Source of the DNA: Neelides folsomi | Taxonomy: Eukaryota > Arthropoda > Collembola > Neelipleona > Neelidae | Length of the DNA: 64,000 nt | NCBI GenBank assembly: GCA_034687125.1 | Contig: JAQGBZ010000024.1 | Location: 62,001 to 126,000 of the forward strand | Reading direction: 5' to 3' | Shown: positions 6,700 to 61,000 of the stretch, one piece after another | Layout: each line of letters begins with the position of its first letter | How positions within the stretch are numbered: the first letter of the stretch is position 1 | The notes under the pieces: model-generated | Database searches by the model: none | What the model was told of the DNA's origin: nothing | The model's input: only the letters and a program-made list of their open reading frames with translations | Made by a program: the position numbers and the translations under genes

Positions 6700-6791
6700 T
6701 CCTGGTTTGATTGATTCAGTCGGGAGAAAGCTCTGTTTCAGGTCCACTGGAATTGCCCGCAGCAATCAAGTGAAAACAATACTTCGTTCCA
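6700..6791 (+). other. possible 5' untranslated exon of the NPLP1-like gene
   Basis: A moderately GC-rich patch ends in a good splice donor (CCACTG|GTAGGT at 6791/6792), and a good acceptor (CTTTTAG|ATTTTC) lies at 7057/7058 just before the first coding exon. This suits a non-coding first exon and an intron of about 266 bases. The transcription start is not visible, so the left edge is a guess. Confidence 0.3.
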
Positions 6792-7093
6792 CTGGTAGGT
6801 TTGATTAATTTCTAAACCTTGTACAATATAAGTTTATATTTAGTTAAGTTACTTAAATATGATCTTACTTGTACAATGAAATTCATTTTGATCATTAAAA
6901 GGGCTTTAATTGCAAAAGTTATGCGGTTGAAGTTTTCCTCGACAAACTTTTATTTGTTCAAGGAGTTTAATCAATCAGGAGAGATTTGATCTCAAGGTTT
7001 ACGACTTGAAGGCATTGCATTACAAAATTACAAATAAATAAGAAACTTGTCTTTTAGATTTTCTTCCGAAATCTTTCTTGATTTGTGGAGGAG

Positions 7094-9738
7094 ATGGATG
7101 TCCTTGGTCTTCAATCCAGGAGAGTTGGAAGTTCGTCAATTAAAATGTTCTGGTTTCAATTTACATTTCTTCTCCTCTTTTCCCACAAGGTTTGTGACTT
7201 CTTTTTATTACTTTTTCTTATAATTGAACCAATCGAGATTTTAACTTTTTATAATTTCATATTATTTTCTCAATCTTTCCAAAAAATTGTCCATGAGTTA
7301 ATATAACCATATTTTTTGTATTTTAAGAATCTCGAATTTAAAATTTTTATAAATACTACAATAATAAGTATAAAGTCCAAGTTCAAATAAAACCAGAAAT
7401 TCAAGAATTAGAGGATGTATTTTATTACAAAATAATGTGAACGTTTCTGACAAATAGATTAAATACAGATATGAGAATTTAATTTTCCAAATTCGAACTA
7501 ATGAGTGTTTAATTAAATATGAAATTTTGAGGAGCAATTTCATTCATTGACCTTTGAAGGAAATAATGTGTGAGAGCGTAGAGGTAAAAAGAAATAATGA
7601 GATTTCCAGCTCTTCCTAGTTGAGTCTGGGCTTTCCAATTTTTTAAATGGATCATAATTGAGGCAAATGCATCATACTGTTCATGGTGTTTACCAAACAT
7701 ACGTCAAGCTCAAAAGTTAATAGTTTTTTGTAAATATTACAGTCAAGTCTTTTGGCCTTGTCAACCCGAATTCAGATATGTTTTAACATCAAACATCCTA
7801 TCTAATATAATTAAATAATTTTCAATGCATAATGTGCTCCAGTATATCCATATCTTGCTCCCAAGCTCACGTTCACGCAACCTTTTCCATCAAGGTTTAT
7901 GTGTTTTTTTCAGAATTTCACAGCCAAAAGACTTATGTATTAAAAATGCTGAAATAAGTAGGACTAATGCTCTTATTTTCTGACAATTATATTACCAGGC
8001 TTTACCAACATGTTTTTTAAAATTGATAATGTCTGATAATAAATATGAATGATATAAAGTTTAAAATTTTTATAAATCTAAAATATACATAGAATGCATA
8101 CAAAAACCATTAGTTGTAAATAGCCAAATACATAACAATGAAATGTTTATCTTGTCCAAGAAGAATAATTAACTACTTATTACATATAATTATGTATGCA
8201 TCTAATGGAACATGCTCGTTTTTGATCATATAAATTCCCATATAATAAGTGCTATGTTATTAAAGCTAGATGCTTTTATATTCTTATCAAACATCCCAAT
8301 GTATGAATATTAATTATACAGACAGTATAATAAAAGATAGTGATACTGACAAGAGCATTATTCAACTTCTTTGTATGGGAATTTCTTTTATGTTAACAAT
8401 GCAGATAAGCCGAGTTTCATCTGTTGAAGAAGACTACAACATCTTGTCTGATTATGAAGATGATGCAAACGGAGAAAAATGGGGAGAATTTTCCGAGGCA
8501 AAAAGGCACGTCGGATCACTCGCTGCATATTCTGGTGTACGGAATTTCGGAAGGACTGGGCGAACCAACGGAGGAATGCAAATAAAGGATTCAGACTCAA
8601 TCACCACCAACGAGGAGAGAAATGCCGAGGAGGAAATTGAGGCTAAAGGCAAACGGTTCTTAGGTAATCTCCTTTTTAATGAAAATAAAATTGAAAATGT
8701 CATTTATGTACCACAATCCTCTATACTAACTAAATAAATGTTCTAACTCAACGTAAGTGTGCATAAAACTGAAAGAGAGCAAATTCAAGATTTGGAAATA
8801 ATATGGAGACCAATAGAGAAAGAGATTTAAGGGATTTGATGAAATGGAGAGCAATAATCCACCAGATTTCATTGCAACCACGAATAGCCTCTTTTATCTC
8901 ACTCAAAGTGTCTACATTAATAAACATTTTCAACCTAACTGATGAGATTATGGTAATAAATCACAGCTGAGAACGTTCAATGAGCTCAACCCTTTCTTCC
9001 TTGTGGGTGGAAAAGGGCAGATGTGAAATAGAAAGAGAGAGAGAGAGAAATGAGCAAAATGACTCATGACCGCAAATGGGAAAAGGAAGGAAAAGGGAAA
9101 TAATAAATCCGAGTTAATGGGCGCGGAAAAATACGCCTTAAGGGAAAAGAAGGACCAACTTGATGTTTTAATAGGATTCGCCCCAAATGGTGTAAATTAG
9201 AGAAGATGAAACCTCCGGCTGGAGTTAAAACCACTAAAACCAGTGGCCCAAAAGCTTATATAGTATTTTAGGTGTTAAGTGCTCAAGTCATAATAAGATC
9301 AACATTAAGTAATATTTTCCTCATGTGCGGACAAATCTTTTTATGGGAGAATCTCTTACTCAAAGAACTCGATCTAAGATTTCGATCCAAGGGTTAGAAC
9401 TTGGGTTGAACTTTAACTCCCGTACTTTCGCCCCCTTATGACATTTTGTCCGGACAATAAGACAAGGAGGGAAGAACGGGAAGGAGCAAGGGAGGGAGGA
9501 ATAATGAATTTTTCTCTTTGATATATCAGGATCTATGGCGAGGAGCGGGTGGTTCCCGAGACAGTTCCGGGGATTTATGGAGCCACAATGGGAGAAACGG
9601 CACATCGGAGCCATCGCTCGCCTCGGTTGGGGCCCATACAACCAAAGGAACCGGATGGACGGAGAAAGCTTCAAGAGAAATGTCCAGTCCCTCAGAAGGA
9701 ATAAAGTTCGTTGGGGTGGAGGTGAAGATAACTCTTAA
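7094..9738 (+). CDS. Nplp1: NPLP1-like neuropeptide precursor
   Basis: Three coding exons: 7094-7189, 8405-8663 and 9530-9738, joined in phases 0 and 1, giving 187 residues. A hydrophobic signal sequence (MFWFQFTFLLLF, residues 18-29) follows the first methionine; translation may instead start at Met18 (7145), leaving a cleaner signal peptide. Dibasic KR sites at 65-66, 115-116, 141-142 and 167-168 release peptides beginning HVGSLAAYSGVRNF (followed by Gly-Arg, so possibly amidated), FLGSMARSGWFPRQF, HIGAIARLGWGPYNQ and NVQSLRR. The repeated aromatic/His-(V/I/L)-G-(S/A)-(L/M/I)-A-R start is the hallmark of NPLP1 peptides in arthropods, which are secreted from neurons. Acidic spacers separate the peptides. 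The second intron splits the third peptide (FLG|SMARSG). The assignment rests on peptide motifs, signal sequence and processing sites; the number of peptides is lower than in many insects, so a missed exon is possible. Confidence 0.85.
7190..8404 (+). other. first coding intron of the NPLP1-like gene
   Basis: GT-AG intron (CACAAG|GTTTGT to ACAATGCAG) of about 1.2 kb, phase 0. AT-rich, with no convincing extra peptide exon. Confidence 0.75.
8664..9529 (+). other. second intron of the NPLP1-like gene, with GA microsatellite
   Basis: GT-AG intron (TTCTTAG|GTAATC to ATATATCAG) in phase 1. It holds a (GA)n run at about 9034-9048 and purine-rich strings (GGAAAAGGAAGG-like) near 9.08-9.1 kb and 9.46-9.5 kb, resembling in texture the long sprint intron. 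Confidence 0.75.
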
Positions 9739-10181
9739 CTCACGCGAATCCCTCAATATCCGGACCTCGGTTAGGGGAACCGATATCTTATAGAGATCTT
9801 ATATTGCTACAGTCCTTGTTTATTTATGGTTCCCTTTATGCTCGACAATTTCGGAGTAACTTATTGTAACAGCCTCTTTAGCCATTATGTGCTTTTTTAC
9901 AAATAATTTTCTCAACTTTATTACCTGGATAATTTCTACCTTTTAATTAATTGCGTTGTCCATTAAATCTACCCTAAAACATGAAAGCAAATTAACTTCC
10001 TTTTAGTACATAATTGAAACTATCTAAATTATGATACATATTTGTAGAATACACTACTTGTAGTTGTAGTAAGATATAAATACTAAATAAAATATGTATA
10101 AAATCTTAACTGCAAAGGCATAAATTACAATAAAAATGTCAATAATTTTGTTAAATACCTAAAATGTGTATTATAAATACA
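9739..10181. other. NPLP1-like 3' region, AT-rich
   Basis: Downstream of the neuropeptide stop codon. An AATAAA at 10086-10091 could be its poly(A) signal. Nothing else recognisable. Confidence 0.45.
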
Positions 10182-10839
10182 TACTAAAGCCTATTCTTTC
10201 CTTGAGAAACACTTTTAAAATCTTCTTGTAATTACTTCTTTATCGTTCCAATTTTTACATCGAAATGTCCATCTGTTAGTCAATTACATTATATTTAGTC
10301 AAATTAAAGGTTAGCTCGCCTTATAATATAATGGTCAAGCTATTTAATCCATAACTTGAAGACATCGTAAAGGCCTACTTTAATTCAAAACTCTACCCAT
10401 AATTAAAAAGTTATAATGAAGAGTTTGTACACGATATTTTTAAAGACAATTAATCTATGTAGGATAAGTGAAATTCAAATTGAAGTAATGTTATCGGCAA
10501 AACTTTTAAGATAAATTGGATGAGATGAATTTTACTCCCTATGCCTCGTTGAATTTTAATTATACTAATGATCGTTAATAAAATATCGTGGCTAAACTTT
10601 TCTATTTTAACTTTTTTATAATGGGTAGTAGAGTTTTGAATTAAAGTAGACTTTTACCATGTCTTCAAGTTATGGATTAAATAGCTTGACCATTATATTA
10701 TAAGGCGAGTTAACCTTTAATTTGACTAAATATAATGTAATTGACAAACAAATGGACATTTGGATGTAAAAATTGGGACGATAAACAAGCAATTACAAGA
10801 TTTTAAAAGTGTTTCTCAAGGAAAGAATCGGCTTTAGTA
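10182..10839. mobile_element. 658-bp foldback element with ~258-base inverted arms
   Basis: The sequence from 10182 to about 10440 recurs as its reverse complement from about 10581 to 10839 with few mismatches and small gaps, leaving a unique centre of about 140 bases. The outer ends read TA-CTAAAGCC and GGCTTTAG-TA, so a TA flanks each end, as for Tc1/mariner-type or other TA-targeting elements. No open frame of note lies inside, so this is a non-autonomous foldback/MITE-like element. The arms remain very similar, suggesting a fairly recent insertion or continuing arm correction. RNA from it would form a long hairpin. Confidence 0.75.
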
Positions 10840-11933
10840 GGCCTGTATCAATATTCATAATTTTATTGAGAAAAAGGTTAAGCAAATGTGAAATTAAGAA
10901 CAGTGAATTTTTTATATTTTATATTGGTTCGTTCTTTCATTGACATTGAGTTAAAGATTTAAGTATTTAAATCCTTTATTTTTTGATTGATGAACAAATG
11001 TATAAAAAAATTTAAAAAAATGTTAAATAAACAAACATAATGAAAATATGTAAAGTTAGCATTATCGAATGTATAAAATTAATCTATTATACTATTTAAT
11101 ACTAACTAGTCAAATAGGTAATTAACCTGAGAATTTTAGTAAAAGCTAAGAACCGTCAGTTCTTTACCACATGCAAGATACCTATAAAAATGTTATGAAT
11201 AAAATATTATGTAGTATTTATAATTGCTCGTAAGTAATTTAATGTTGAAGCTATTCTGTTTAAAATCTACCAATTATTAAATCTATTAGGTAATAACAAT
11301 GGGTGTAAGTAGGTAATAAATGAATGTATGTAGAACCTTACATCTTACATCATTATGTACATCTTACCAACTTACCAACCTAACTAATACAAATACGGAA
11401 ATAAATACAATTGTCAAATAAGCCAAAATAAAATTATTACCAAAACATTGTTTGGAGAGAAGACAAGAGACATTTCTTCATACAAACAATTTCATTTCTA
11501 ATTTATTTAAACATTAATAGGTAATAAATAGGAATTGTTATTAGATAAGATAAGTATGTTACCTAATTCCTTTTCATTTAAAACCCATTTTCAACAATAT
11601 ATTTTTTATGATGAATAAATTAAAAAGGTTATTTTTGATTATAAGGTTTATTATCCTTTAAGTATTAATTGATTTGAGGAAAGCCATATAATACTATTAT
11701 GCTAGCGATGAGCATAAATAATCGACATAAATATATATGATTATTAATAATATTTAGTAATAATATATATATATATATATATTTATAAATTAATAGAATA
11801 AAGATTACATGTATGCCTGCTTATATAGACAATAAATAGATTTAAATTAACATACAATAAATTGTTCAAATAGAAAATATTAACTTGTTATTTTCGATGT
11901 TGATATTATTAGAGATGACCGCCTGTTAATCAT
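10840..11933. other. very AT-rich spacer with (TA)n microsatellite
   Basis: No gene seen. An (AT)n tract of about ten units lies near 11762-11782. A TTTATT at 11647-11652 (AATAAA on the - strand) about 280 bases past the OTUD3 stop is a possible poly(A) signal for that gene. Confidence 0.55.
11762..11782. repeat. (TA)n microsatellite
   Basis: Uninterrupted alternating TA run in an AT-rich spacer. Confidence 0.9.
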
Positions 11934-52400: not shown

Positions 52401-55076
52401 CAACGACCCGGAGCAAAGATTCATCATCTTCCTCTTCTACCTCGATCGGGAACAGGAACCACCAGAAGAATCATTCCTCGATGGGTTGCGCGAGTGTGGA
52501 TAATCTCTGCCACTTGAGAGACATTCGGAAGAGAGCCAAAAAGTTTAATTGCGGCCACACCGAGGGCGATGAAGATGAGGAGTTTATGGTGACGAAGGAG
52601 AAGGAGCGGCCAAAGTCTGGAGAGATTTTAACTGCCTCTAATAAAATCTCAGGTTCAATTACCCTTTTCTTCATTTGTTTTTTTCCTCCTTGGCACGTTT
52701 AATTGCTTGTGAGTGATTTGGAAGGGAATGGGATTAGAATTGTAATATTATTTTTAGGTCGGGAGAATGGGAATAAGAAGGGGAGCCGGGCGGATTTGGA
52801 CAAGGAGCGAAGAGAAGAACGGGAGATGTTGGATATTTCAAACAAGTCTTGGAGATTGGATAACTCATGGGAATTCGTCATGTGGGAGAAAAATGAAGAA
52901 GGGAGGTACGGTGAGAATCTGACTGGGAGCTCTTGCAAGTTTCCCTTGTCGACTCCTCCAAACTCCCCGTCTTGCATTGAGGAAGCCCAAGACCGGGTTT
53001 TTGGTGAGACTGGGAAGAGAAACAGCCAATTGATGAACCGCTTCTCTCGATATGACAATTTGGAAGGAGGGGGAAATGAAGAAGAAATTTCAGAAGAAAG
53101 TGATTTCCACGAAGAAAAAATTTCCCAACCTTGGGACTCATCAAAATGGGAACATTTGCTCAGACTTGTTTCAGAGTCTTCAAATCAGCTCGATTCTATT
53201 CAAATGAATGATAAATCTAAGCAGATGAGAAATAACCAATTGAACTTACGAACACCTAATGACTCAACGTCGTCAATCTTAAAAGAAATTAAAGTTTCTT
53301 CTGATGTTTTGGGTTCTGAGCCGAGGCAAAGGGTTAGTTTATTGAATTACATATAATATTTTTCAAATCTAAATATTTGTTTTATTTATAAATATTTTAT
53401 TATATAATGAAATCTTTATTTTCCTTACTTGAGAATTTCTTATTGCAGATTTCTAAGATCCTTGAAGTAAATGGAAATGTTGATAAGGCTGGAAAACTCA
53501 TTGCGAATCTTGTGAGAGATCTCTCTGAGAGGGAAAATGGAGTTTTTGGACCAACGCTAAAAAGCTTTAAATCCTGCACTATAACTGCTAAAGTACAAGA
53601 CCCTCAAGTAAGAATTCATTTATTTTCTTATTCATGACTTTTTACGAATTAAAAGAAAAGATTGTGTTGAATACAACGTTATGTCATTTTCTGATTAATT
53701 GATAAGTTTTTCTCAATTACAAAACATTCTCATTCTTGACAGAAAATAATGAGGAACATTCGGCAATTCATCTCCGGGATGAAAAACTATTTAGTTGGAG
53801 TGAGCCCGGAAACCAACGACTTGAGAAGTGAGATCAAGAAACAAACAGAGCTTCTGTCCGACACGGAATTCCTCAACATCGACGCAATTCTTGAGGAAGT
53901 TCTCATAGATTTGGTCATCTCTCCTCTCAATTTCCATATAAGGTCCCTCATTGACGAACAGAGTGTGAAAAGTAACGTGGACTATAGTCCACTTCTTTGC
54001 GAGAGGAATTATATTGCTAACAGCATGCCTCGACTCGATATCGAGCGACAGGAAATGATTGAGAAGCTCCAAAGAATCTACACAGGACTTGAGGACTCTG
54101 TTTCCCCACTCAAGAAGCTTGATAAATGGAATGAATTCGTATGCCTGGTATGTTCATTTTCTTTTACAAATATGATGAATTGCTTCTGTTTAGTTGTGAA
54201 GAACAAATAAGAAAATATTTTGGCAGTTTGTACAAAAAAATTGGTGCAAGTTGGAAAGTGACATTTATTAGTCGTAATTTGTTTTATTGCTTAATAAAGG
54301 TTCAAGATATGGAAGATTATTCTTCAGAGTCTTTTCTTCCTCTGTTGGCTGAGATGCTGGGGACAGTATGTAGCTCAAAACTGCCAAGTCACGTCGAGTA
54401 TATGATAGGACTATTGCCGCATTCACTCGCTGAGCAGAATAATTATTCCATTTCGCTTCTTTTGTCGGCCTTGTCGGCCCTACGAGCAAAGGATGAGAAA
54501 GGAAAATGCTCAAAAACCTCCGTTCGTGTGATTGTGCCGGATGAAAGGAATGGAACTCTTATAAGGTCTTTTTTCACAAAATGCAATTAAATTCATAGAA
54601 TTGTCATTCAAATATTTGCCCTTTCTAATTAATCACTCATCACTGATATAATACTTAAATAATACTTATGTATGGGCATGTGTATTATAGGAAAATGGTG
54701 CCTGTGAGAGAAACAACAACAAATAAAGACGTGGCGAAAATAGTAGCTTCGAAACTTGGAATTGCCAACCCTGGGGATTATATTCTAGTCAGAATTAAGA
54801 ATGGCGAAGGTACTTAAACATACTCCTATATTTTATAAACATTGTATTTATACTTAACACTCATTTATTAATTTTCTAATAGATAGTAAGCTTTGATTAG
54901 ATAAAAGAAGTATTTATACAACTATCGGGTCTGAACAATGGATTTTTATTTTTTTATCAATAGAGAGGCTTTGCCCCGAAGGAGAACTTGTGTCTCAATT
55001 TGTTGAGGACAGCGGAACAGCTTTGGCGTACAAAAGAATTGATGCCAAAATTGGATGGCCTCAAAGGATCCATTAA
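43480..55076 (+). CDS. spri: Rab5 GEF of the sprint/RIN family (SH2-VPS9-RA)
   Basis: Twelve exons: 43480-43674, 46338-46528, 47012-47103, 48344-48482, 49551-49830, 51836-52652, 52758-53332, 53449-53607, 53743-54147, 54300-54565, 54691-54809, 54964-55076. Phases agree at every join. From ATG 43483 it gives 1,115 residues, or 1,163 if the exon at 15488 is included. RIN/sprint proteins bind phosphotyrosine and active Ras and load GTP onto Rab5 at endosomes during receptor uptake. A Ser-rich N-terminus leads to LLERLIRTHPVWFLP and the SH2 domain over exons 43480-46528, with the phosphotyrosine-binding arginine in GNFIVRSSTQP. A proline-rich STPPPVPPRWS (possible SH3 ligand), SDYEDIW and long polar linkers follow. 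The VPS9 region spans 53743-54565 (FLPLLAEMLG, SHVEYMIGLLPHSL). The C-terminal RA domain (VRETTTNKDVAKIVASKLGI, NPGDYILVRIKNGEE) ends in PQRIH. The VPS9 core is divergent: SSESFLP replaces the usual DDFLP. Start and isoforms are uncertain. Confidence 0.95.
43675..46337 (+). other. sprint intron inside the SH2 coding region
   Basis: GT-AG intron (CTCCAG|GTTCCC to GCTTGTTGTAG), phase 0, 2.66 kb. No exon or repeat recognised. Confidence 0.85.
46529..47011 (+). other. sprint intron
   Basis: GT-AG intron (CCTAAG|GTACGT to TCTTTTCAG), splitting a serine codon. Nothing else recognised. Confidence 0.9.
47104..48343 (+). other. sprint intron
   Basis: GT-AG intron (GCCAAG|GTAAAG to AATTGACAG), phase 1, splitting the Glu of the GQEFW segment just after the SH2 domain. 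No other feature seen. Confidence 0.9.
48483..49550 (+). other. sprint intron with a possible alternative exon
   Basis: GT-AG intron (TTGAGGAA|GTAAGT to TGATAATTAG), phase 2. A candidate alternative exon at 49433-49499 lies near its 3' end and is listed separately. Confidence 0.8.
49433..49499 (+). CDS. spri: candidate alternative sprint exon (microexon or early stop)
   Basis: After the acceptor CATTCATGTAG, the only open frame that fits the upstream phase (2) reads KLNDESGRKVLKDKYADPLK and then Glu-Leu-stop (TGA 49497-49499). The composition is strongly protein-like. Two readings are possible. With a weak donor at 49471/49472 (GATAA|GTACGC), it is a 39-base cassette that keeps the frame. 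Used to its end, it ends translation after the SH2 domain and would give a short isoform lacking VPS9 and RA. Confidence 0.4.
49831..51835 (+). other. sprint intron with ATT microsatellite
   Basis: GT-AG intron (CAAAGGA|GTAAGT to TTTCCCATAG), phase 0, 2.0 kb. It contains an ATT trinucleotide run at about 50690-50706 and is AT-rich in its second half. No exon recognised. Confidence 0.85.
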
Positions 55077-58071: not shown

Positions 58072-61000
58072 ATGAGTTCTTCTGATCAACCCGAAGAGAA
58101 GACTGAATCAATTTCAAAAAATTTAGAAGAAAAATGCGAAGAACCAAATAAAGTGTTACATCCTTTGCAAAGTTTGGAAAAATCCGACCAAGAGAAAATT
58201 GGTGAGGTTGAAGCCAAGCTCTTGAAGGAACTTGTTGAAATGGCCTGTGCTCAAACCGAAGGCCCAAAATCCGAAAAGGACATTCTTATACGGAAACAAC
58301 AATCACCGAAAGAGAAACCCGCAGTGGCTTCCACTGAAATTTCGGAAATGCCATTTAATCAAATTGAAAAAATGCGACCGACAGAAATTTCTAGTATTTT
58401 AAGTAGTGAACAAATGTCGTTGGTTTTAACATCCCAAGATCAATCACAAAAGCCAAGTCCCATTATGCAACCTTCACTTACACCAAGTCCAGAGCAGTTT
58501 GCAGCGTTTCAACAATCGAAACAAATTCAAAAAGCGCCTTTGCTCCATCAACAACTAATTCAACATCTCGCTTCACCAACGAAATCGAGTTCTCTTAAAA
58601 TGGGTTCAAATCCTTCGCTCTTATCGAGCCCATCGTTCTTAGCTCGCAGTCAAGAATTTGATAAGCGAACTTCGATGACTCAACAACGATTGGATATTTC
58701 TCCTTCAAATTTGCAAAGACCGAGACAACCCATTACTGCTTCACCTGGAACCCCAATGGATATTTCTCAATCAGATCAATTAAGCTCAGGACGGAGCTCG
58801 GGAGAAATCCCGAAAAGTCCACTTATTGGCAGAGAAGATAAACGGATGAAATATCCCGATAGACCGATAACTCCGCAACTTTCCAGTTTCGACCATCCTG
58901 TTTCACCTGCAGGATCGAGTGGAAGTTCAAAAATGCATATTTACAACCGAAGACGTCATTCTCGTTTGTATCCGCAATTTGACAATAATCATTGTCTGTA
59001 TCAAGTTCATCATTGCCCTGATCCGGTTCTCCCTGGGACTCTTTACTGTATCAGACATCAATCAGAAATTGCACAATTTTATGGCCAATGCTCATATATT
59101 TACCTCGTAAATGGACATCGTTGTAAAAATTATAAAATTACACGAGATGATAAAAATGGGTGAGTTTTTTCATAATTACTCTTGTAAAATTATAAAATTA
59201 TATCAATCATTTATAAAGCGTAAAAAATTGTTAAACCAATATTTATATTTATATTTCGATGAATTTTCAGTTTATGCGAACTCCATGCAACGAGAATAAG
59301 TATGAGAAAGAAATCTTTAAAGAGAAGACCCAAAGTTCCTGAAACATCAAAGAGTCTCATTACCAAAATATCAAAATGTGTGGATAAAAAGAAAGCTCCT
59401 CAAAGTATGTCAGTCATTTGGCCAATTTTATCTTTATAAATAAAATAAGCATCTCTTTGTTCAATAATTTAATAATCAAAATCTAATTTCAGATGAGCCA
59501 AAGGAAGATAATTCTCTTCCGCCTGAAGATGAATTTCCTGAGAGGCTAATCAAAATGGATCATTTTGCTAAATTTCAAACAGAATTTGATTCTGATCCTG
59601 ATTATGAAGATTTGGATGAATATTATCCATTAAGGTTTCCTTTATAAATGCATTTGCAATCTTTACTTCCGTTTTTATGTTGTGTGTTTCATTCCTTCGA
59701 CTATTAAATAATATCGATTTATCTTTTATTCTATTAGAACTGCCGGATATTATACGACTGAAGAAATTGTGAAAATTTATCGTTCGAAACTTAACCAGCT
59801 TAAGAATCTCTACATGCGGCAATTGGAATTTTTGAAGTTTGAATATAAAGAGAAACGACGGCTTTATCTCATCGCAGAATCAGAAATTGCAGGATCAAAT
59901 GTTACAAAAGATCTTAAAAGGATTGTCGTAAATGACGAAGCCACAGCTGAATATTTTGCAGGTCAACTTGAGGCTCAGGAAGAAACAAAAGCACTTCTTT
60001 CATATCATCACAAAATAGGATTCAAATGTTACTTTCATATGCTTGCCAAGAAAACTCATCAGGTTCAATCAAAATATTCTTATTATAATATCTTATTATA
60101 ATATCTAATCTTTATATTATATAGTTTTTTATCACTCCATACATTTTATCATCTCGTAATCATAATAAATCTACGAATAAAAATCTTTATAGATTTTTAT
60201 GTCGGATTTTAATTAAAATTCTTAGTTAATGACGAGGATAATTTATAATAATTATTTTATTGATCATATTATTTAGGAGCAATTGGCCAAAGAAAATTCT
60301 AAGAAGAAATTCGAGGAAATGGGAAATGAAGAAAAGCGGAGGTACTTCTACGAACTTACTCGAAAAGACGGACTTAATCCCGAACATTCCTCTCCGTCTC
60401 GAATTCAAATCTGCTCTTTTAGTGGAAATTTAGTTCATTGCAAAGAACGCGTCCTGCCGCTCACTAAGTTCTGTCAGGCTCACATTCTTAACGTAATTCA
60501 ACTTATTTATGAACATTCCCTCAATTCTTTACTTTTGATTGAGTGGATTAAACTTATTTCTTATTGTGCTATAGGATTTGAATCAAAAGCTATTCGGTGC
60601 ATGTAAGCGGGTTATCAACGAAGATGGAGATATTTGTGGAATTGCTGTGCTCGGCCGTTTAGACGATTCTTACTGCGATTTACACAAAGTTATTAAAGTG
60701 AAAGATATCCCTGAAACGGAGATTGAGAGGAAGAAGAAGTTGGAATGGGAGGAAAAACTTCCTGAGGCAACATTAAACGTAATTTAATTTTATAAATCAA
60801 TACTTGATGGCATATAAAAAATATTTTTTACTTTATACTTATAATGTATGATATATTCACAAGATAAAATTTTATTATTTTAAAGATTGGTTTTATAAAT
60901 TTTATTACAATATTTATTTGATTTTATAGGATGAAATCAGAATATTAGAAGAAATGGTACTCGATGCGGCGATCGATGATAAGTTTTTGGAATCGGAAAT

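Follow-up and report, generated by a model that had tools for sequence, protein, structure and literature searches.

A probable NPLP1 neuropeptide precursor gene with few peptide copies in the genome of a pancrustacean arthropod

The window analysed here is a stretch of 64,000 nucleotides (64 kb) of contig JAQGBZ010000024.1 (C24), which is part of an assembly of 75.1 Mb in 840 contigs. Three exons on its plus strand (7094-7189, 8405-8663 and 9530-9738) join with matching phases into an open frame of 187 residues plus a stop codon and, judging from sequence, very probably represent the gene for NPLP1 (neuropeptide-like precursor 1) in a pancrustacean arthropod. A search of the genome revealed no second copy. 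The joined protein consists of an N-terminal hydrophobic stretch, acidic spacers and four peptides that each follow KR, and its predicted membership of NPLP1 is supported by this precursor layout and by the peptide motif. The gene would be a new member of a known family, given the ranks of its peptides in a motif profile, the shuffling results, the single copy, the pancrustacean gene order, and the occurrence of NPLP1 in insects, decapods and non-pterygote hexapods. It is most likely ordinary for the family, with a short precursor and only three good peptide copies.

Peptides and their boundaries

The four peptides named in the first-pass annotation are all present in the joined protein, with the starts HVGSLAA, FLGSMAR, HIGAIAR and NVQSLRR. 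They had been described as KR-bounded, which holds for the N-terminal side, where KR provides the dibasic site required of NPLP1 precursors ahead of 4/4 peptides, but not for the C-terminal ends as drawn. Indeed, HVGSLAAYSGVRNF ends at GR, which is the amidation signal required of NPLP1 precursors (the modification itself is predicted), a single R marks the end of both FLGSMARSGWFPRQF and HIGAIARLGWGPYNQ, and NVQSLRR reaches the C-terminus of the precursor without a clear end. Cutting at KR alone would give pieces of 48, 24, 24 and 19 residues. Peptide 2 is complete only once the transcript is spliced, because intron 2 interrupts the codon for the Gly at position 3 of the peptide. Peptides 2 and 3 share an A-R-x-G-W-x-P core (ARSGWFP and ARLGWGP, respectively).

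Motif statistics

A pattern made of a dibasic pair, any residue and [VILMFQ][GASQ][SATG][LIVM]A was found at two sites in the six frames of the window, both within this gene. A profile was also built from 12 distinct printed seven-residue starts, namely those of the six Drosophila peptides, the distinct ant starts (two of the ant peptides being predicted but undetected by mass) and crab HIGSLYR, the variable crayfish motif being excluded. With this profile, HVGSLAA (score 19.2) and HIGAIAR (19.1) rank first and second both of the 1,481 heptamers preceded by a dibasic pair and of the 83,448 stop-free heptamers of the six frames, and NVQSLRR (9.1) ranks third among the dibasic-preceded ones. When residues 42-187 were shuffled with the dibasic sites fixed, the best, second, third or fourth score was reached in none of 100,000 shuffles. 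The four scores of the gene (19.2, 12.5, 19.1 and 9.1) all lie within the leave-one-out span of the 12 printed starts (6.3-22.4), and three of the four peptides fit the N-terminal consensus x-(V/I/L)-(G/A)-(S/T/A)-(L/V/I/M)-A-(R/A). The NPLP1-type reading put forward by the first-pass annotation is thus supported, the peptide starts matching those of Drosophila and ant NPLP1 and of crab HIGSLYRamide far above chance.

Furthermore, a proline at position 12, which lies outside both the profile and the motif invoked earlier, is present in peptides 2 and 3 (2/4), as in Drosophila IPNamide and DPK, and in 8 of the 13 printed peptides that are at least 12 residues long, IPNamide variants from other Drosophila species being left out of the count. 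The precursor holds three prolines, and 368 of 200,000 shuffles place one at position 12 in at least two of the four peptides. This regularity was found here and is not part of a published definition; it is taken as supportive rather than strict, because the test was conceived after the peptides had been viewed.

Gene model

The proposed exon coordinates and the joins 7189/8405 and 8663/9530 were borne out, as they give one intact frame with two GT..AG introns: intron 1 (1215 nt, phase 0, gtttgt..tgcag) and intron 2 (8664-9529, 866 nt, phase 1, gtaatc..atcag). It had also been anticipated that none of the exons would stand out as a long frame. Only two frames within 7094-9738 reach 100 aa, one of 155 aa on the plus strand (8270-8737) and one of 104 aa on the minus strand (9360-9674), and the gene would easily be overlooked by an annotation relying on long open frames. 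The frame of exon 2 continues open inside intron 2 (8664-8737), which would give a short alternative C-terminus if the intron were retained.

A codon score was trained on two other open frames in the window, 703-2106 on the minus strand and 58072-59163 on the plus strand, and compared with a background of 1,136 stretches of 255 nt (95% point -0.095, 99% point -0.008, maximum 0.322). Exon 2 scores 0.143 bits per codon in the proposed frame (-0.162 and -0.270 in the others), which is above the 99% point of the background. The G+C content is 0.379 in exon 1 (7058-7189), 0.452 in exon 2 and 0.536 in exon 3, versus 0.267 in intron 1, 0.368 in intron 2 and 0.350 in the window.

Upstream of the start codon, a TATA-like element and an initiator-like TCAGT (Table 1) are read as a putative core promoter on the basis of their positions only. 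If a candidate 5' untranslated region (5' UTR) intron (6795-7057) is removed, the spliced leader (113 nt) contains no ATG, versus three in the unspliced stretch. The TATA-like element, the TCAGT and the ATG-free spliced leader tentatively suggest a transcript start near 6718. Downstream of the stop codon, the first plus-strand AATAAA is at 10086 of the window; it carries no weight alone, the two strands of the 3,258-base locus L001 holding 18 such sites versus 10.6 expected.

Table 1. Features of the proposed NPLP1 gene (positions in the window)
Feature	Coordinates	Strand	Remarks
TATA-like TATTTAA	6685..6691	+	33 nt upstream of the A (6718) in initiator-like TCAGT, 6716-6720
Candidate non-coding first exon	6718..6794	+	Putative donor CACTG/gtaggt
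Start-codon exon (exon 1)	7058..7189	+	ATG 7094; second in-frame ATG 7145; hydrophobic stretch MFWFQFTFLLLFSHK; 7058-7093 would be 5' UTR
Exon 2	8405..8663	+	Acidic spacer, peptide 1, another acidic spacer, beginning of peptide 2
Peptide 1 HVGSLAAYSGVRNF	8507..8548	+	GR next (predicted C-terminal amide); top of 83,448 heptamers
Peptide 2 FLGSMARSGWFPRQF	8657..9567	+	Split by intron 2 (8664-9529) within its third codon
Exon 3	9530..9738	+	Remainder of peptide 2, peptides 3 and 4, stop codon
Peptide 3 HIGAIARLGWGPYNQ	9601..9645	+	Second among 83,448 heptamers
Peptide 4 start NVQSL (then RRNKV...)	9679..9693	+	Weak copy; score 9.1, third of 1,481 dibasic-preceded heptamers

Comparison with known NPLP1 precursors

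An N-terminal consensus has been reported for NPLP1 paracopies of Drosophila, termite and locust, and NPLP1 of Drosophila melanogaster (MTYamide, IPNamide, VQQ, QRAamide, DPK and APK) likewise has several x-(V/I/L)-(G/A)-(S/T/A)-(L/V/M)-A-(R/A) starts and convertase sites, the start of VQQ deviating with LKS instead of LAR (PMC4237046). The LAA variant of peptide 1 recurs in Drosophila SVAALAAQGLLNAPK, whereas the G-W pair that peptides 2 and 3 carry at positions 9-10 is found in none of the six Drosophila peptides (PMC4022047). NPLP1 has also been described from other Drosophila species (PMC2575521). In the ants Lasius niger and Atta sexdens, similar starts occur (HIASVAR, NIGSLAR and NVAALAR), and the position-12 proline is present in six of the seven distinct tabled peptides, two of the seven being predicted and undetected by mass; in the ants, position 8 is D or Q and positions 11-12 are L-P in six of the seven, whereas in peptides 2 and 3 position 8 is S or L, G-W occupies positions 9-10 and position 11 is F or G (PMC10194420).

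Among decapods, the HIGSLYRamides (NPLP of crabs and crayfish) have the HIG(S/A) start in common with the gene described here; the NPLP peptides are named HIGSLYRamides by some (Veenstra 2016; PMC4888303). Decapod HIGSLYRamides are amidated peptides of 7-8 residues, whereas the present peptides have at least 14 (PMC4655400, PMC5141488). A survey of shrimp reported finding no NPLP1/HIGSLYRamide (PMC7212414), and NPLP1 is listed as present in non-pterygote hexapods and lacking in D. pulex (PMC4770511). Strings from the peptides of this gene, and one variant of them, were absent from the literature searched.

The gene had been called compact, which is a fair description: 187 aa and four pieces compare with 22 predicted peptides in stink-bug NPLP1 (PMC6250713) and with 14 dibasic sites, but only two full HIGSLYRamides, in a partial crab precursor of 326 aa, a partial crayfish precursor having 10 copies (PMC4655400, PMC5141488). 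For eight other precursors, Collembola are reported to have the lowest paracopy numbers, in a table of paracopies that omits NPLP1 (Derst et al. 2016; PMC4770511). Relative to the peptides compared, what is distinctive is the small size and the A-R-x-G-W-x-P core in two peptides. Tentatively, and with somewhat less than even probability, the family may have shrunk to three good copies in this small-genome pancrustacean, two of them sharing the core as a lineage-specific feature.

Counter-evidence and alternative explanations

Several observations weigh against the assignment to NPLP1 or against the gene model. FLGSMAR (12.5) is unexceptional on its own, since the top heptamer outside the gene in the window scores 13.2; it is counted as a copy because of its KR and of the neighbouring peptides. 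Peptide 4 is a poor copy. Exon 1 is the weakest exon: its codon score in the proposed frame (-0.121 bits per codon; -0.156 and -0.261 in the others) is below the 95% point of the background, neither this score nor its G+C content marks it, and it rests on splice phase and hydrophobicity. The N-terminal hydrophobic stretch MFWFQFTFLLLF, which was recognised by reading the sequence only and has no clear cleavage site visible, lies in this same exon. Exon 3 is without frame preference, as its three frames (0.041 in the proposed one, 0.070 and 0.031) all exceed the 99% point. The precursor matched no family in a search of Pfam, which is expected for such a precursor yet lends no support, and its single match in a search of solved structures (E 0.81) is taken as chance; folding is not expected of such precursors. 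Moreover, one account states that insect NPLP1 paracopies have no conserved motif (PMC6250713), and Drosophila VQQ, the peptide with a proposed receptor, matches the consensus only in part (PMC4237046).

An alternative is an NPLP1 gene whose translation starts inside the frame of exon 2 (open reading frame 8270-8737, ATG at 8270 or 8378), with IIQLLCMGISFMLTMQ as signal core. The 155-aa frame is open through the proposed acceptor and has a hydrophobic stretch just upstream of it, but the acceptor ttcttttatgttaacaatgcag and a phase-matching donor at 7189 exist, the hydrophobic core would be very short from 8378 and would lie about 29 residues in from 8270, and the putative TATA/Inr-like pair and the candidate ATG-free spliced leader stand upstream of exon 1; such a start is considered unlikely. 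It is quite improbable that intron 2 is retained at times, as the open frame up to the stop at 8737 would permit, since the shorter isoform, ending in KRFLGNLLFNENKIENVIYVPQSSILTK, would be left with peptide 1 as its only good copy and would lack peptides 2-4, including two that fit the family motif.

The low copy number and the poor fourth copy would also suit a decayed NPLP1 pseudogene. This is very improbable, as the exons join into an unbroken frame, both introns have GT..AG ends, the two best motifs have been well preserved and the genome search found no other copy. Finally, exon 1 without codon signal and exon 3 without frame preference might be pieces assembled by chance where there is no gene. 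This is barely conceivable in view of the motif scores, which none of the 100,000 shuffles reached, and of the top two of the 83,448 heptamers, which lie about 1.1 kb apart on the same strand, each behind KR, with a fitting peptide between them that is completed by splicing.

Proposed processing, receptor and significance

The product of the preferred three-exon NPLP1 gene would enter the secretory path and would be cleaved at KR, probably also at GR and at some single R sites. Peptide 1 would be amidated at its C-terminus, and by analogy the peptides are probably released from neurons as signals. The receptor, which is the least certain step, could be a membrane guanylate cyclase, by analogy with one Drosophila NPLP1 peptide. 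Indeed, Drosophila NPLP1 peptides have been detected by mass spectrometry, and Gyc76C, a receptor guanylate cyclase, has been reported to have VQQ as a ligand (PMC4022047, PMC4770511). In the present genome, matches to the guanylate-cyclase domain and to the ANF-receptor domain share contig and strand at four places (contigs C14, C46, C58 and C328), and copper type II monooxygenase domains were also matched. The copper type II monooxygenase family includes the amidating enzyme and is not limited to it. Such domain matches indicate no more than that parts of the pathway may exist in this genome.

NPLP1 peptides are widespread in arthropods, and within the examined parts of the literature only Drosophila VQQ has a proposed receptor, Gyc76C (PMC4770511, PMC4237046, PMC4022047). 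A precursor this short, with few copies, makes it easier to recognise which residues are held, namely positions 2-7 and perhaps the proline at position 12. It also offers a small set of ligands to test and, if the reading as a stripped-down precursor is true, would be convenient for matching NPLP1 peptides to receptors; in other respects the gene is an ordinary member of the family.

Genome context

A search of the genome with the precursor matched only its own three exons at E values up to 1. The genome is that of an arthropod, as indicated by 39 matches to the R&R cuticle-protein domain. A mitochondrial contig (C742; 15,157 bases, 31% G+C), assumed to come from the same animal, has the order I-Q-M-nad2-W-C-Y-cox1-L2-cox2-K-D-atp-cox3-G-nad3, with protein genes named by visual inspection of their translations and tRNAs taken from ARAGORN, which did not predict trnN; an odd prediction inside cox3 was ignored. 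This order, with trnL2 between cox1 and cox2, is the pancrustacean ground pattern. A mite or a tardigrade as the source is rejected on account of the cuticle-protein matches and the mitochondrial order, and Strepsiptera, whose genomes are small, had no further evidence in its favour. Furthermore, the odorant-binding and odorant-receptor families gave two and three weak matches in the genome, respectively. An exact pattern for the octamer FCNAFTGC of CCAP had no match in the genome, which may reflect a variant, an intron within the octamer or absence.

Other features of the window

Neither Rfam at gathering scores nor tRNA scanning returned a hit within the window. Downstream of the gene, a long inverted repeat (10173-10848) has arms at 10224-10409 and 10615-10800 (186 nt, 91% complementary) and outer arms at 10173-10224 and 10797-10848 (52 nt, 90%) and resembles a foldback or MITE-type element. 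On the minus strand, an uninterrupted, intronless frame of 467 aa (703-2106) belongs to the carotenoid oxygenase family; it matches Pfam RPE65 (E 1.6e-89) from position 44 to position 468 of the 469 in the profile, and an exon further upstream may encode the first 43. A frame at 53749-54210 matches a RIN1-like domain (Pfam PF23268, E 2.1e-9, over the cut-off) and probably represents one exon of a Ras/Rab interactor-like gene; the adjoining frame 54141-54590 is without a match. The frames 58072-59163 and 60283-60606 have weak matches to the zf-C3Hc3H domain, below the curated cut-off, and may be two exons of a single KANSL2-like gene.
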